A stretch of 64,000 bases of DNA, taken from Dethiosulfovibrio peptidovorans DSM 11002. GTDB lineage: Bacteria > Synergistota > Synergistia > Synergistales > Dethiosulfovibrionaceae. A program made the translations under genes and the position numbers. The notes under the pieces were generated by a model. The model was not told the DNA's origin, searched no databases, and worked only from the letters and a program-made list of their open reading frames with translations. Within the stretch, counting starts at the first letter, position 1. Each line of letters begins with the position of its first letter. This document shows, in pieces, positions 4,094-10,952 of the stretch. The DNA lies in assembly GCF_000172975.1 (NCBI RefSeq), contig NZ_ABTR02000001.1:1030501-1094500 (forward strand), given 5' to 3'.

Positions 4094-6301
4094 ATGGGGG
4101 GGGCTGTCTTGGTTTTTCGTCTGTTGAGCGTTTTTATTTTGGTTTTATGTCTTTTGGTGCAGCCTGGTCCTTCTTTAGCGGCGGAAGGGCTGCCTCTGCC
4201 GAGTCTGGCGGAGTTGGAGACGATGGTTAGCCAGGGTCCAGAGGTCCTTGCCGCCCTGCACTCCCTCGCCAGGGACGAACATCTGGAGAGGTCCGTTCTC
4301 CAGGAGATGGGGCCGAAACTATTCGCCGGGGTCAACTATGGCTACAGCCACGAACCGGCCTCGGAGACGTCGGAGGAGAAGATCTCCTACGGAAAGCTGA
4401 CCTTCAGGGCCGGAGTTACATTTCCCATTCTCGGGACCTGGAACAAGGAGAAGATAGGTCTGCTACAGGCTAAGCTTCGTTCTATGGAGGGTCGTATCTC
4501 CGCCGAGAGGGTCACGGAGGTTAACGTGACGGCCCTTAGAAAGGCCTATATAGTTCTATGGGGCGAGATCGGCAAGAGGAAGCTCATGGATGCCTTTCTG
4601 GCAAATAGGGAGAAAGTAGAGGCTGCCCTGACAGACAGGACCCAGGACGGTCTATTGTTGGAATCGGACAGGTTGGAGTTCTCCTCCGCCTACGATTTGG
4701 TCTTGAGGGATCGTATAGCCTCTCGAAGGACCCAGGCTCAGGCGGTTCAGTTCATAAGGGAGGCCACCGGCCGTTCCTGGACCGTGGGAGACGAGGTCAT
4801 GAAGCCTACCCTGCCGGATTGGGACGGGAATGGTTTCGGAGAGCTTCTGTCGGTGAAGCATCTGGCCGGAGTTCGCTACCAGGAGGAAAGGGAACAACTC
4901 TATCGAAGGATTCTAGGTCTGTCGGAAAGGTTGGGCAGAGAGGGATCGGTCGAGGTAGGGATTACTACCGGACGGGATTTCCCCGGGGCAACCGGAGCGG
5001 GGGCCTATATAGGGGTAAACCTGTTGGAGCCTTTCGGAAGTTTGAGCTCCGAAGAGGACGAGACCTTTCTGGCCGCCAGCGCCGATCTTGAACGCCGCCG
5101 GGCGGAGGACCTTCTGGACCGCATAAGGCTGGACGGAGAGCTTATAGACTCCCAGTATCTTCTGGAGTACGCCCTAGGATCGGTTCGCTTCGGGGTCACT
5201 AGGGCCAGAGGGGCGGCCGAGGCGGTCAGACAGAACGGTCTCAGACACGGCCGTATCGCCGGCGACACCTTGGAGGCCCTCCAGAGAAGCCGTTACGATT
5301 ATCTGAGATCCGCATTGGACCTCATGGACGCCCAGCTTCTGGCGTTGCAGGCACTGGTGGAGATGGGACGGTTCGTTCCCTCCGCCCCGGAGGAGAGGGC
5401 CTATCCCCTGAGGCTGTTCGAGGAAAACAGTTATATTCTGGACCCCTCCTGGCTGGGCGACGGTCCTAAAACGATCGAAAGCAGGCCTGTCCCGAGACCG
5501 GTCGAGATCACCCCGAAGGCCGATGCGGCTAAAAAGCCCTCGGCGTCGGTCTATGTATGGAAGGCCGAACCTCTTTTGAACAGTGGTACCAGAGGCTCCG
5601 AGCTCGATCGTCTGATAGAAGAGGGATTCGACAGGGTGCTTCTTTCCTTCAATTCAGGCGAGGTCAGGGCTTTGAAGAAAAGCGAAAGGGCCAGAGCTTC
5701 CCTCAGAGCCTTGCTCAGGGCTTCCGATAGCAGGGGAGTGAGGATGGACCTTCTGTTGGGGGACCCGAGCTGGATACTTCCGGAGCACAGGGTCGAGCTG
5801 GCAAATCTGGTGAGGTTTTTCGCACCCTTCGAGTTCGACGGACTCCATCTCGACTTGGAGCCCGACTCCATACCGGGAGCGGCGAGCAGACGGATAGAGC
5901 TGGCCGGAGAGCTGATCAGGACCCTGGAGTTGATAGACGGCGTTACCGATCTGCCCATATCCCTGTCGGTACATCCCAGGTATCTCGAGGGAGATCTACG
6001 GTCGTTTTTCGGTCCTAAGTTGGCGAAGCTGAACCCGGAGGAGGTGGCGGTGATGCTCTATTCCACCGATGCCGAACTGGTGGCCCGGAGGTTCGGAGCC
6101 ATATTGAGAGCAAACGGAGATCTCCACATCTCTCTGGCCCAGAGCATAGAGAAGGTTCTCTCGACGAAGGAAAGCTACGGCTCTCTGGGCAGGTCCGCCA
6201 TGTGGAGCCGACTTTCCTACTACGACGAGCGTTTCGATCGCTCGAATTTCCGGGGATTCATCGTCCAGGCGTGGCTGGACTATAAGGAGGCGGTACGATG
6301 A
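4094..6301 (+). CDS. TolC-like outer-membrane protein fused to a GH18-like barrel
   Basis: A 735-residue protein. Residues 1-30 form a signal peptide ending near LAAEG. Residues 35-430 are rich in long amphipathic helices with the layout of TolC/outer-membrane efflux proteins. A proline-rich linker (about 455-490) leads to a C-terminal domain of about 240 residues that reads as a (beta/alpha)8 barrel. FDGLHLDLEPD with D582 and E589 resembles the DGxDxDxE active-site strand of GH18-type glycosidases, with His replacing one Asp. The last codon overlaps the HlyD gene by 4 bases. An export channel carrying its own polysaccharide-trimming domain is the inference. The start is uncertain; TTG at 4109 is an alternative. 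Confidence 0.75.
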   Translation: MGGAVLVFRLLSVFILVLCLLVQPGPSLAAEGLPLPSLAELETMVSQGPEVLAALHSLARDEHLERSVLQEMGPKLFAGVNYGYSHEPASETSEEKISYGKLTFRAGVTFPILGTWNKEKIGLLQAKLRSMEGRISAERVTEVNVTALRKAYIVLWGEIGKRKLMDAFLANREKVEAALTDRTQDGLLLESDRLEFSSAYDLVLRDRIASRRTQAQAVQFIREATGRSWTVGDEVMKPTLPDWDGNGFGELLSVKHLAGVRYQEEREQLYRRILGLSERLGREGSVEVGITTGRDFPGATGAGAYIGVNLLEPFGSLSSEEDETFLAASADLERRRAEDLLDRIRLDGELIDSQYLLEYALGSVRFGVTRARGAAEAVRQNGLRHGRIAGDTLEALQRSRYDYLRSALDLMDAQLLALQALVEMGRFVPSAPEERAYPLRLFEENSYILDPSWLGDGPKTIESRPVPRPVEITPKADAAKKPSASVYVWKAEPLLNSGTRGSELDRLIEEGFDRVLLSFNSGEVRALKKSERARASLRALLRASDSRGVRMDLLLGDPSWILPEHRVELANLVRFFAPFEFDGLHLDLEPDSIPGAASRRIELAGELIRTLELIDGVTDLPISLSVHPRYLEGDLRSFFGPKLAKLNPEEVAVMLYSTDAELVARRFGAILRANGDLHISLAQSIEKVLSTKESYGSLGRSAMWSRLSYYDERFDRSNFRGFIVQAWLDYKEAVR

Positions 6302-7347
6302 AGGTCACCTTTTCTCCCAAGAAGAGCAAGGATCCCAACAGAGAGGGGGATATAAAGGTAGAATACGCTCCGGCCAGAAGGGCCTTTCCCCGCTGGCGTT
6401 GGTACTTCGTGGTTTTGCTGGTGTCCTCTCCGCTTCTGTTTTTCTTCTTCAGGGTCGGGTTGGGCTTTCTCTGGGCCTCCTCTCCGGGAGTCGTCTTCAT
6501 GGAGAAGGTGTCGGTCAACTGCCCCAGACCGGGATTGGTGACGGAGCTGCCGGTTCTGAGAGGGCAGGAGATCTCGTCGGGCGATCTCATCGCCAAAGTT
6601 GTCGAACCGATGTTGGAGGCCCGTAAGGCTCCTCTTATAGCGGAGAGACGGGCCATATTGGCCCAGGTTCCTCAGTTGGCTCAGGAAGGTTCTTTAAAGA
6701 AGAGCCTGGCTCTGGCTGGAAAGGTGCTCGACGGAGAGAGGGATGTTCTGAGACAGGTGCAGTGGCTTTTTGAAAGAGGGGCAGCCACCAGGGCGGAGCT
6801 GAACGAGGCCCGGGGCAAGGTGGTTAGGGCCGAGGGAGATGTCATAAGGGCTCAGGCAGATCTGGAGGTGGCCTCCGCGACGGTCGACATCCCCCAAAAC
6901 GCCGTTAGGCTGGCCCAGATAGAGGCGGAGCTTGGAGCCATGGAGGAGAGCCAGGGCGAACTGACGATCCTGTCTCCTATACCGGGTGTGGTCCTGGATC
7001 TTTACGCCGAGGAAGGGCAGACGGTGGCTCAGGGGGCTCCCGTAGCCACTTTAGGTGATCCCGACTCCGTGTCGGTGGTTGCTTTCGTCGATCCAAGATA
7101 TCTCAGCATGATAGACCTGGAATCTCCGGCGAGGGTAAGGTTTCCCGGAGGTACCGTCATGGAGGCCGATCCCGAAGGCAGACCGGTCATCGCCGGGCCT
7201 CTGCCCTCCGCTTTGGCCGAGCCGTTTTCCGAGGGTAAGCAGACCGTTCAGGTCTATCTTAAGACCGATTCTCCCATACCCTTGAATCTGATGGTGGAGG
7301 GACTCCCGGTGAAGATTCACTGGGGATTCCACTTCCCCTGGAGGTGA
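6298..7347 (+). CDS. HlyD-family periplasmic adaptor
   Basis: A 349-residue protein with a basic cytoplasmic N terminus, one membrane helix at about residues 37-60, a first half of the biotinyl-lipoyl-like domain (VNCPRPGLVTELPVLRGQEI), a helical hairpin at about 100-210, then the second lipoyl half (LSPIPGVVLDLYAEEGQTV) and a beta-barrel domain. This is the architecture of HlyD/EmrA membrane-fusion proteins that bridge an inner-membrane transporter or synthase to TolC. ATGA overlap with the TolC gene implies translational coupling, and the next genes encode a regulator and a polysaccharide synthase. It probably spans the periplasm in an exopolysaccharide export path. Confidence 0.88.
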   Translation: MKVTFSPKKSKDPNREGDIKVEYAPARRAFPRWRWYFVVLLVSSPLLFFFFRVGLGFLWASSPGVVFMEKVSVNCPRPGLVTELPVLRGQEISSGDLIAKVVEPMLEARKAPLIAERRAILAQVPQLAQEGSLKKSLALAGKVLDGERDVLRQVQWLFERGAATRAELNEARGKVVRAEGDVIRAQADLEVASATVDIPQNAVRLAQIEAELGAMEESQGELTILSPIPGVVLDLYAEEGQTVAQGAPVATLGDPDSVSVVAFVDPRYLSMIDLESPARVRFPGGTVMEADPEGRPVIAGPLPSALAEPFSEGKQTVQVYLKTDSPIPLNLMVEGLPVKIHWGFHFPWR

Positions 7348-7352
7348 ACCTT

Positions 7353-8750
7353 ATGGACAGACCTAAATTGATCCGTCTGGTGTCAGATGGGACAGGGGTT
7401 CTGGTCTCGTCTGACCTACTGGTCGAGATATATGATCCCGACAGAGTTTCCTCCGTTCTTTTGGACGGTAACTACGGAGGCCTTATTCTAGATATGGATC
7501 TAGAGGAGTCGGTTCTGGTGTCGATACTGACGGAGGTTCGAAAGGCCCCCTCCATCTGTTGGCTTCCGGTGCTGTGTTCCTCCGCGCTTGACGGAGATCT
7601 GGTCTACCTGACCGACGGGGTAGTTACCTCGACGGAGGAAGCTGCCGTAACCAGTGCAGAGGTTCGGAAGAGAGTCGCCGAGATAGATCTCGACGCCCTG
7701 AGCCAAGGCAGGGAGTACAGATTAATGGGATATCTCTACGGCAGAACCTCCGACATATGGCCGGTTCTTCGACCGACTTCGCACGATCTGTACGTCTATC
7801 CCGCCGCCGATTTCCTCAGCGGAGAGGGAGATTCGGCTCGTTGGCTCAGGAACATGAGGGAGCGAGGACTTGTCGGTAACGGCACATTGGTGGACAGGAT
7901 CAGAAGGTGTCCCAGCTGCGAGGGGCCTCGGCTCAACTACGTCGACGTATGTCCCGGCTGCGGCAGCATCGACATAGCGGCCAAGGAGTTCACCCACTGC
8001 TTTACCTGCGGAAGAGTGGCCCCTACGGAGGAGTTTCTCCGTGGACATACCCTTCAATGTCCCTTTTGCAGCACCATGTTGAGACATCTGGGCTCGGACT
8101 ACGACCACCCTCTGGAGAGCTTCGTCTGCAACGATTGCGGGCTTCGGTTCATAGAGGCCGATGTGGTGGTGGACTGCCTCGACTGTCGAACCAGGTCCAA
8201 GCCGGAGGATCTGCTGATAGACTCCATCCATAGCTATCGTCTGACCGAGAAGGGGCGCTCCGCCGCCAAGGTCGGCTCCATCGACGATGTCTACGCCCTG
8301 TTGGACCGGCTGAACTACGTGGTACCGGCCTACTTCGACCAGTTTCTGGACTGGCTGATAATGCTCAATCGCCGCTACCCTGACGAGGTTTTCTCTTTGC
8401 TGGGAATCCGCTTCTTCAATATAGTGGAGATGTCCGAGATCCTCGGAAGGCAGAGAACGGCTCAGCTCATGGACTCTCTGGCCGGAAGGCTCAGACAGCT
8501 TATAAGGGGGACCGACGTCTCCACCAGGAACGGAACGGGGATACTCTGGCTCCTGCTTCCCAGGACCGACAGAGAGGGAGCCTCGATTTTGGAGGAACGG
8601 ATTTTGGCCTTGGCGAACGAGGTAGTGGTGGAGGGGGTCCCCAAGCCTCGTTTTTGCTCCTCTCTTTTCTCCGTATCGGAGGATCTGCTCGAGAGGGACA
8701 CGGCGGCCCTCGTCCTCGCCAGGTTGTCCGGAGATCTGGAGGGAAGCTGA
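7353..8750 (+). CDS. TackOD1 zinc-ribbon / degenerate GGDEF regulator
   Basis: A 465-residue soluble protein. The N-terminal 180 residues have no domain I can name. Residues 186-278 hold six CXXC pairs (CPSC, CPGC, CFTC, CPFC, CNDC, CLDC) with the YVDVCPGCGS context of the TackOD1 output domain, a predicted metal-binding module. Residues 330-465 resemble a GGDEF fold (helix, then VSTRNGTGILWLLLPRTD), but the GGDEF signature is replaced by NGTGI, so cyclase activity is unlikely. ATG 7353 is preferred because GGAGGTGA lies 5 bases upstream; GTG 7344 would overlap it. Placed between adaptor and synthase, it is probably a regulatory subunit. Confidence 0.75.
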   Translation: MDRPKLIRLVSDGTGVLVSSDLLVEIYDPDRVSSVLLDGNYGGLILDMDLEESVLVSILTEVRKAPSICWLPVLCSSALDGDLVYLTDGVVTSTEEAAVTSAEVRKRVAEIDLDALSQGREYRLMGYLYGRTSDIWPVLRPTSHDLYVYPAADFLSGEGDSARWLRNMRERGLVGNGTLVDRIRRCPSCEGPRLNYVDVCPGCGSIDIAAKEFTHCFTCGRVAPTEEFLRGHTLQCPFCSTMLRHLGSDYDHPLESFVCNDCGLRFIEADVVVDCLDCRTRSKPEDLLIDSIHSYRLTEKGRSAAKVGSIDDVYALLDRLNYVVPAYFDQFLDWLIMLNRRYPDEVFSLLGIRFFNIVEMSEILGRQRTAQLMDSLAGRLRQLIRGTDVSTRNGTGILWLLLPRTDREGASILEERILALANEVVVEGVPKPRFCSSLFSVSEDLLERDTAALVLARLSGDLEGS

Positions 8751-8751
8751 T

Positions 8752-10086
8752 TTGAACGTCCCGGAGCCCCTTTTCAGGGCGGTATCTCTTTTCCTGGACG
8801 CCCCTCTTTCGCCGGAGACATGGCAGGTTCTCCTCAAGTTCATCCCCTTCGTGCTTTTTCTGGAGATGCCGGTCTATATAATGATAATCCTCGGGGTGCT
8901 GAAACATTGTCTCGAACGAATGTACCAGCTTCCCTGGCGGAGCGACTATTATCCGTCGGTGTCCTGTCTCGTGACATGCTACAGCGAGGGAGATGCGGTT
9001 AAACATACCATAAGGTCTCTGGCTCGTCAGATATACCCGGGCAGGATTCAGATAATACCCATAGTGGACGGAGCGGCGTTGAACGGGGAGACGTTCAGGG
9101 CGGCCAAGTCGATGGAGTCGGCTGTGGCTAGGTTGTCCAACCGATCCCTTCAGGTGGTCCCCAAGTGGCAAAGAGGCGGCAGGGTCTCCGCTCTCAACAC
9201 CGGGATGAACTTCGCCGACGGAGAAATCGTAATGGCCCTCGACGGCGATACCTCCTTCGACAACGATATGGTGGAGCGGGCCACCAGACACTTCGAGGAC
9301 CGGTCGGTTGGGTGCGTGTCCGGTTGTCTCAGGGTCCGAAACGCTCGGAGCGGCCTGGTGACGAGGCTTCAGGCAATAGAGTACTTCCTATCGATACAGG
9401 CGGCCAAGACGGGACTGAGCGCTCTCGGCGTGGTGAACAATATCTCCGGCGCCTTCGGAGTGTTTCGCAGATCCGTGTTGGATCTCATAGGTGGCTGGGA
9501 CGCCGGTACCGCCGAGGATCTGGACCTGACTCTCAGGGTGAAGAATTATTTCGGTCGTTACGACGGTTTCAGGATCATATTCGACCCGGAGGCCATGGGT
9601 TTCACCGACGTGCCCGATACTTTCAGGGATTTTTTCAAGCAGAGGTTGAGGTGGGACGGAGACCTGTCGTTTCTGTATTTCAGAAAACACTGGAGGAGCT
9701 TTTCTCCCAAGCTGGTGGGGTGGAAGAACTTTCTCGCCCTTCTCTGGACGGGACTGCTCTTTCAGGTGGTGATGCCCCTTCTGATAGTCTGTTACACAGC
9801 CTATCTTTTCGTGGCTTATCCTCTGTCCTTCGCCGTGTGGATAACCGTTTTGGTATACCTCTTCTACCTGGCTGTGACGGCAGTGATGTTCCTCCTCTTC
9901 GTCCTTCTGCTGTCGGAGAGACCGAAAGAGGATCTGGCGACGATGCCCTGGATAGTGCTAAGCCCCCTTTTCGCCTTCGCCTGTAGGGTATACGGTGCTT
10001 TCGCCACCCTGTGGGAGCTTTTGGGAAGAGGGCACAGGGACACCAACATGGCCCCATGGTGGGTTACCAAAAAGAGCAAATTCTAG
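8752..10086 (+). CDS. Membrane glycosyltransferase family 2, processive synthase type
   Basis: A 444-residue polysaccharide synthase. There is one hydrophobic helix at about 31-50, a GT-A catalytic domain at 65-310, and three or four helices at 320-425. The UDP-sugar motifs are present: VDGAAL, DGD (164-166), the acceptor-side TAED (253-256) and QRLRW (297-301). These mark the cellulose/hyaluronan/PNAG synthase branch with processive activity. No PilZ domain is attached. TTG 8752 has GGAGGG eight bases upstream and follows the previous stop by one base. In this operon it most likely makes the polymer that HlyD and TolC proteins export; sugar identity cannot be read. Confidence 0.88.
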   Translation: MNVPEPLFRAVSLFLDAPLSPETWQVLLKFIPFVLFLEMPVYIMIILGVLKHCLERMYQLPWRSDYYPSVSCLVTCYSEGDAVKHTIRSLARQIYPGRIQIIPIVDGAALNGETFRAAKSMESAVARLSNRSLQVVPKWQRGGRVSALNTGMNFADGEIVMALDGDTSFDNDMVERATRHFEDRSVGCVSGCLRVRNARSGLVTRLQAIEYFLSIQAAKTGLSALGVVNNISGAFGVFRRSVLDLIGGWDAGTAEDLDLTLRVKNYFGRYDGFRIIFDPEAMGFTDVPDTFRDFFKQRLRWDGDLSFLYFRKHWRSFSPKLVGWKNFLALLWTGLLFQVVMPLLIVCYTAYLFVAYPLSFAVWITVLVYLFYLAVTAVMFLLFVLLLSERPKEDLATMPWIVLSPLFAFACRVYGAFATLWELLGRGHRDTNMAPWWVTKKSKF

Positions 10087-10127: not shown

Positions 10128-10952
10128 ATGAGCGAACTGGACATCATACAACCCAGACTGGCGGTGCTTATAGACGCCGACAACGCCAGGCCGTCGATCA
10201 CCGAGCCTCTGCTGGCGGAGGTAGCCAAGTACGGAGTTGCGAGCGTCAAGCGCATCTACGGCGACTGGACCACCCCTAATCTCGGAGGTTGGAAGACCGT
10301 GCTTCTGGAGCACTCGATCCAGCCGATACAGCAGTTTCGCTACACCGTGGGGAAGAACGCCACCGACAGCGCTATGATAATAGACGCCATGGACCTGCTC
10401 TTCACCAACCGTTTCGACGGATTCTGTCTCGTGTCCAGCGACAGCGACTTCACCAGGCTGGCCGCCAGGATAAGGGAGGCGGGATTGATGGTCTACGGTT
10501 TCGGCGAGAAGAAGACCCCGAAGCCCTTCGTGTCGGCCTGCGACAAGTTTATCTACACCGAGGTCATATCGGTGAACAAGGAGGACTCCCCCTCGGCGAT
10601 AAAGAGAAAGACCACCGACGAACTCAAGGGAGACACCCAGCTGGTCAACCTGTTGAGATCGGCCCTCGAGGCGGCGTCGGACGACACGGGATGGGCCCAG
10701 TTGGGAACGGTGGGTAGCAACATAGCCAAACAGTCTCCCGAGTTCGACCCCAGAAACTACGGCTACGGCAAGCTGGGAGAGCTGGCCTTCGCCATAGGCA
10801 TATTCGACGTGGACGAGAGGGTCCAGAGCGACGGCCATTCTCGGGTGATATACATCAGAAACAAGCCCAAGAGCAGAAAGGTCGCCCGTAGAACCACCAA
10901 CGGAAATGGCAACGGAGGCAACGGTAGAAAGACCAGGAAAAAGACCCAGTAA
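10128..10952 (+). CDS. NYN-domain nuclease with LOTUS/OST-HTH domain
   Basis: A 274-residue protein. Residues 11-150 form a NYN (PIN-like, DUF88/LabA) domain: LAVLIDADNARPS with the first acidic residues, KNATDSAMIIDAMDLLF, and LVSSDSDFTRLA with the last Asp pair. Residues 175-255 fit an OST-HTH/LOTUS domain, and the tail is Lys/Arg/Asn-rich (NGNGNGGNGRKTRKK), likely RNA-binding. Such proteins are predicted RNases. It starts 41 bases after the synthase gene with no clear terminator, so it may be co-transcribed; a functional link to the polysaccharide module is unproven. Confidence 0.88.
   Translation: MSELDIIQPRLAVLIDADNARPSITEPLLAEVAKYGVASVKRIYGDWTTPNLGGWKTVLLEHSIQPIQQFRYTVGKNATDSAMIIDAMDLLFTNRFDGFCLVSSDSDFTRLAARIREAGLMVYGFGEKKTPKPFVSACDKFIYTEVISVNKEDSPSAIKRKTTDELKGDTQLVNLLRSALEAASDDTGWAQLGTVGSNIAKQSPEFDPRNYGYGKLGELAFAIGIFDVDERVQSDGHSRVIYIRNKPKSRKVARRTTNGNGNGGNGRKTRKKTQ

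Follow-up and report, generated by a model that had tools for sequence, protein, structure and literature searches.

A cassette of four codirectional genes occupies positions 4094-10086 of the window, by which we mean the whole 64,000-nucleotide stretch of the Dethiosulfovibrio peptidovorans DSM 11002 genome (contig NZ_ABTR02000001.1) that was analyzed. It probably constitutes a complete minimal synthase-dependent exopolysaccharide machine, gated by cyclic di-GMP (c-di-GMP) and exporting its product through a glycosyltransferase family 2 (GT2) synthase, a HlyD-family adaptor, and a TolC-type channel. All four open reading frames (ORFs) lie on the forward (+) strand: gene 1 (4094-6301; 735 amino acids) encodes a TolC-like channel fused to a glycosidase, gene 2 (6298-7347; 349 amino acids) the adaptor, gene 3 (7344-8750; 468 amino acids from a GTG start) a protein with REC-like, TackOD1, and degenerate GGDEF parts, and gene 4 (8752-10086; 444 amino acids from a TTG start) the processive synthase. 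The junctions are, in order, a 4-nt overlap, a second 4-nt overlap, and a 1-nt gap, and the back-to-back packing and the coordinates given in an initial annotation made from the sequence alone were exact. We also lean, a little less firmly, toward regarding the cassette as one of a widespread, undescribed group of c-di-GMP-gated machines, in which each subunit of the TolC-type tunnel brings its own periplasmic glycosidase, representing a new family, and TackOD1 forms part of the receptor.

The gene 4 product was matched by Glyco_tranf_2_3 (PF13641, 1.5e-22) and contains transmembrane (TM) segments; its GT2 motifs (D106, D164-x-D166, E255-D256, and Q297RLRW301) were conserved over 79 sequences. 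The closest curated model was PgaC_IcaA (TIGR03937), at 152 bits and thus below its cut-off of 422; NodC was second at 89 bits, far below its own cut-off, and the cellulose synthase model TIGR03030 was remote, at 34.8 bits versus a cut-off of 699. No PilZ domain was found in the cassette, and the only PilZ match in the genome is far off, at C1:273719. The resemblance of the synthase to PgaC, NodC, and chitin synthases, taken with the GH18-like barrel of gene 1 described below, permits a weak guess that the product is a GlcNAc-type beta-glycan. The second place of NodC, and the fact that HlyD/TolC pumps mostly move small molecules or proteins, would also suit a NodC-like synthase whose product is a short oligosaccharide or the head group of a glycolipid, with HlyD and TolC exporting this small product and the glycosidase setting its length. 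We consider this unlikely, since the best model is that of a polymer synthase, the QxxRW motif is invariant, and c-di-GMP control through an I-site is typical of matrix polymers.

That control is predicted to reside in gene 3, whose product was matched by PF18551 (3.3e-66) and GGDEF (2e-5), has no TM segment, and is REC-like at its N-terminus. The TackOD1 zinc-ribbon domain (residues 118-300; 7695..8243) scored 222.9 bits against a cut-off of 32 and displays invariant cysteine pairs and an HC motif, the invariant residues being C189, C192, C203, C206, H218, C219, C222, C239, C242, C262, C265, C278, and C281. A profile search of solved structures led from the GGDEF part to diguanylate cyclases, and the AlphaFold2 structure predicted for the protein, with a predicted local distance difference test (pLDDT) score of 91, gave Foldseek matches to PleD and WspR. 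In the 81 homologues aligned, the R and D of the RxxD I-site (R388-G-T-D391; 8505..8516) were present without exception, and a third I-site residue, R419, 31 residues downstream, was Arg in 77 and Lys in the remaining four. The GGDEF position, five residues past the I-site, reads GTGIL in the window, and neither GG nor [DE]EF occurred there in any of the 81. We take the spacing of RxxD and the downstream Arg to be that of the PleD I-site (R359, D362, R390). Because the catalytic GGDEF motif has been lost while the I-site is intact, which is the signature of receptors such as PelD, the gene 3 protein is likely a cytosolic, catalytically dead, predicted c-di-GMP receptor; the messenger itself should be present because the host genome yielded many GGDEF (18) and some EAL (4) matches. 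The initial annotation described a zinc-ribbon/degenerate-GGDEF protein, and both parts of that description held, but it missed that the zinc ribbon is TackOD1 and that the I-site is intact.

A dead GGDEF domain with a live I-site is the way in which PelD senses c-di-GMP (PMC2170427), and a comparable degenerate GGDEF domain is present in BcsE (PMC8461298). TackOD1, the function of which Galperin et al. 2018 call obscure, was described by them as an output domain that archaea share with some bacteria, with a REC-type architecture (PMC5847659). That obscurity, the invariance of the TackOD1 cysteines, and a REC-like domain suggestive of another input leave a slim chance that the protein senses zinc or redox state and serves as a scaffold acting by protein contacts, in which RxxD would be structural and the ligand something other than c-di-GMP, with the rest of the machine unchanged. 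Such a scaffold would not account readily for the pattern of conservation, in which the R and D never vary and the third position accepts only Arg or Lys, yet the adjacent GGDEF motif has been free to vary.

Gene 1 joins its two halves by a variable linker. The TolC/OEP-like outer-membrane channel half (residues 1-450; 4094..5443) starts with a signal peptide, residues 4-22 being the sole hydrophobic segment of the product, and was assigned by the OEP profile and an alignment of this half, 17 of whose 19 members matched OEP (best 1.5e-18). The C-terminal glycosidase-like TIM-barrel, or glycoside hydrolase (GH), domain (residues 470-735; 5501..6298) was delimited by an alignment of 51 sequences, AlphaFold2, and structural neighbors, and is predicted to be a (beta/alpha)8 barrel with a pLDDT of 95.8. 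Over the 51 sequences, D587 and E589 (end of beta4), H627 and R629 (beta5), E686 (beta7), and Q725 (beta8) stood out, as did Y656 after strand 6 and W727 on strand 8, and nearly all such residues were invariant. The invariant residues include acids at strands 4 and 7, an arrangement that characterizes the retaining glycosidases of clan A. The DxE that ends strand 4 is a feature of GH18 chitinases and, with M-x-Y on strand 6, presumably recalls GH18, as a resemblance rather than a test of membership.

The GH domain of the window had no Pfam match; the GH18 profile gave weak matches in two of the 51 members (best 0.012) and none for the window domain, and sequence searches of the PDB with the TolC and GH profiles returned nothing meaningful. 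Structural comparison ranked Cwp19 first, then GH18 and the matrix hydrolases PslG and PgaB within a few Z units, the GH18 chains giving Z values of 16-17.6 and root-mean-square deviations of 3.4-3.9 over about 220-231 residues; the Foldseek list also contained the PelA hydrolase domain. With many GH barrels ranking so close to Cwp19, no family was assigned. TolC termini are periplasmic, and the GH domain of the fusion should therefore be periplasmic as well. The OEP matches among the aligned channel halves and the TIM-barrel fold of the C-terminal half thus uphold the TolC-glycosidase fusion that had been proposed.

Conservation of the cassette was followed within Synergistota in 25 loci besides the window (L033-L057), these being the ones read around strong TackOD1-protein matches among 101 relatives. 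The order TolC-GH, HlyD, TackOD1, GT2 was kept in the 25, with TolC and GH as one protein, apart from three exceptions: in L036, gene 1 is cut off by the contig end, and in L041 the TolC and GH halves are in overlapping frames. The third, L048, has a TackOD1 gene (about 8102-9373; G084:C22) interrupted by two TGA codons within the match, its other three genes being open, and this may be a pseudogene or an assembly error. TackOD1 and the GH domain occurred together in 31 of 185 Synergistota genomes, and the cases of either alone were G002, with TackOD1 only (gene 1 lies beyond the contig end), and G018, with only a GH remnant; Fisher's test gave p of about 6e-33, a statistic that ignores shared ancestry. 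The G018 remnant (L165 5312-5902, - strand; G018:C2 about 1035665) has no TackOD1, GT2, or HlyD nearby, its genus-mate G035 has the full cassette, and the system has apparently decayed. The cassette is absent in two same-genus species (G001 and G006) and is therefore an accessory system.

The TackOD1-protein alignment was then used to scan 84,980 species genomes (GTDB), giving 128 relatives, 80 of which were kept and read. TolC-GH was a single ORF beside the other cassette genes in 63 of the 80 loci, and full sets were present in Nitrosomonas, Pseudomonas, Burkholderiaceae, Desulfobacterota, Planctomycetota, and Acidobacteriota. One acidobacterial metagenome-assembled genome (MAG) and two "Bacillota" soil MAGs share the Synergistota order; a cyclic permutation of it (TackOD1, GT2, TolC-GH, HlyD) was found in Nitrosomonas, Pseudomonas/Stutzerimonas, Burkholderia, Ralstonia, Marinobacter, Vreelandella, Desulfocapsaceae, and a planctomycete MAG. 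A sample of 398 genomes from the phylum to which L114 (Pseudomonas) belongs contained six GH matches, the center genome included, and the weakest of these led to a very diverged Pseudomonadota locus with all four genes in the order of the window and RxxD intact. Gene order tracks the clades of the GT2 tree, requiring 10 changes versus 29 with shuffled labels. Recurrence of the same contents across phyla means that the architecture is not due to chance. The search for this gene order in other genomes, which the initial annotation had proposed as a check, thus found the order conserved, and its view of the four genes as one unit stands both in Synergistota and beyond; it had the gene set right, but missed that the system reaches far past that phylum.

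Two placements in the GT2 tree disagree with their labels: L077, filed under the archaeon Methanomethylovorans, falls inside Synergistota, and L074, filed under Oscillospiraceae, groups with two Bacillota-labeled MAGs; both are probably mis-binned or contaminant contigs. On the small mobilizable plasmid pKAM345_3 of Aeromonas caviae (L142 8812-10194), a TackOD1-GGDEF gene stands at the end of the linearized record, and any partners may be found on the other side of the record start.

The adaptor encoded by gene 2 (HlyD_3 4.3e-13 and HlyD_D23 1.6e-10 in Pfam) has one N-terminal TM segment, at about residues 37-55, as in an inner-membrane-anchored periplasmic adaptor. Neither the four cassette genes nor the ten flanking ORFs that were tested included an ATP-binding cassette (ABC) gene. 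ABC-type ATPases within about 5 kb of the relatives' cassettes were scattered, unrelated, and often on the opposite strand; that of Nitrosomonas is single and soluble-looking, lies over 400 bp downstream of the cassette, and by inspection resembles ABC-F. Clustering of conserved neighbors produced no further partner gene, the biggest cluster consisting of unrelated ATP-binding proteins, and no dedicated ABC exporter using the same HlyD and TolC was conserved beside the relatives, so the initial proposal was not undone on this account. That HlyD and TolC, whose families are common to efflux systems, form a conventional pump for efflux or type I secretion and lie beside GT2 by chance is very improbable and largely refuted by the conserved linkage, which recurs in several phyla and survives the cyclic change of gene order, with no ABC, RND, or MFS partner conserved beside the cassette in the relatives read.

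Several observations weigh against a machine that is gated and built exactly as we propose. The invariant I-site is a potential to bind c-di-GMP, its site being putative and read from sequence. The window's own TolC half is below the Pfam OEP cut-off (14.1 bits versus 22). In six loci (four Pseudomonas and two Synechococcus MAGs), GH is a separate protein without the TolC half, and TackOD1, GT2, and HlyD stand alone in two Legionellales and one gammaproteobacterial MAG. The same reduced TackOD1-GT2-HlyD set, with neither TolC nor GH, is carried by the Plesiomonas shigelloides plasmid NZ_CP062197.1 (L141 8749-12449) and by Photobacterium pDA100 (L143 8881-12636). Given relatives without the TolC half, the fused channel is not indispensable. 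All seven reduced-type genomes checked contained other TolC-family matches, from 4 to 30 each, and these proteins could serve in trans. Note that the Plesiomonas TackOD1 protein is annotated as a diguanylate cyclase, even though the GGDEF motif was degenerate in every one of the cassette sequences aligned.

The exopolysaccharide machine that we favor would operate as follows. The inner-membrane GT2 protein, to judge from its DxD, ED, and QxxRW motifs and TM helices, would polymerize a nucleotide sugar at the cytosolic face and thread the chain across the membrane, the synthase being switched on when c-di-GMP binds the RxxD I-site of the REC-like/TackOD1/degenerate-GGDEF protein. From the protein families and gene order, the single-TM HlyD protein is expected to take the chain and dock to the TolC-like trimer, creating a closed duct outward, and the periplasmic GH domain may trim or clear stray or jammed polymer escaping the duct. 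Periplasmic hydrolases of other synthase-dependent systems act in a similar way.

The genes on either side of the cassette are unrelated to it. Upstream are genes for an ArsP-type permease, a low-molecular-weight phosphatase, an SBF-family transporter, and a DsbD-like protein; downstream are those for an NYN-LOTUS protein and an FAA hydrolase. The former of these, a predicted ribonuclease with NYN plus OST-HTH/LOTUS domains (window 10128-10952, + strand), starts 41 bp downstream of the cassette and is not conserved beside the cassettes of relatives.

Among described systems, the nearest in layout is the XcsA-XcsB-TolC model for cyanobacterial cellulose export (Maeda et al. 2018), called unvalidated in a 2025 review (PMC12430437). 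Xcs likewise combines a GT2 enzyme, a HlyD-like adaptor, and a TolC-type channel with an associated glucanase and without BcsB/BcsC. In T. vulcanus, however, the genes for Xcs do not lie together, TolC being neither operonic nor fused, and XcsA is a PilZ-bearing cellulose synthase, whereas the present cassette is a single unit without PilZ, in which channel and hydrolase form one protein and control lies in a separate TackOD1/degenerate-GGDEF protein. The Xcs proposal means that the GT2-HlyD-TolC route is not wholly new; the distinct export route claimed initially therefore survives as a unit lacking an ABC exporter but not as a categorically different path.

Alginate synthesis similarly couples a GT2 enzyme (Alg8) to a periplasmic membrane-fusion-type partner (Alg44) with c-di-GMP input, but PilZ is on Alg44 and export is via AlgK/AlgE rather than a TolC type (PMC8461298). 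PelD and BcsE resemble the gene 3 protein in keeping RxxD in a degenerate GGDEF domain within a polysaccharide system (PMC2170427, PMC8461298); the partner domains of PelD are GAF and TM, however, versus TackOD1 and REC-like here, and the likeness to Pel is limited to the receptor. As for Pga, PgaC is the nearest curated model to GT2 and the PgaB hydrolase barrel is a structural neighbor of GH, but the score is far under the PgaC cut-off, and PgaA, PgaB, and a deacetylase were not found in the cassette, nor PgaA or PgaB in the flanks tested. The absence of BcsB/C, PgaA/B, and Wza that had been reported was confirmed for the four genes and ten flanking ORFs; over the same ORFs, no AlgE/AlgK, PgaA, or BcsC-type porin with a TPR scaffold was found, the TolC/OEP type being the only channel in the cassette. 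Defining features of Bcs, Pga, and Alg were thus lacking (no PilZ, no dedicated porin, GT2 under the cut-offs), as was, in the cassette and the flanks tested, the ABC exporter that joins HlyD and TolC in type I secretion, and none was conserved beside the relatives.

No description of a GT2/HlyD/TolC/GGDEF polysaccharide operon was found in the open-access literature, most subscription journals being outside the search. The Peb genes of Pseudomonas putida (two GT2s, an acylneuraminate cytidylyltransferase, an aldolase, a HAD hydrolase, and hypotheticals) do not match the cassette, and literature candidates from Janthinobacterium, Rubrivivax, and Cupriavidus turned out to be something else. Relative to these systems, the novelty lies in the operon, in the fusion of TolC with a glycosidase, and in a regulator that contains TackOD1. 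TackOD1, reported with no function or polysaccharide context (PMC5847659), is here joined to a degenerate GGDEF domain and tied to a synthase, which gives it a functional setting and suggests that well-studied bacteria make a matrix polymer that has gone unnoticed. The idea of polymer export by HlyD and TolC has so far rested on a cyanobacterial model with scattered genes, whereas one compact cassette that unites the parts with a fused hydrolase and a predicted c-di-GMP switch, and that occurs in Pseudomonas, Stutzerimonas, Nitrosomonas, and Vreelandella, all of them culturable, makes this export route directly testable.

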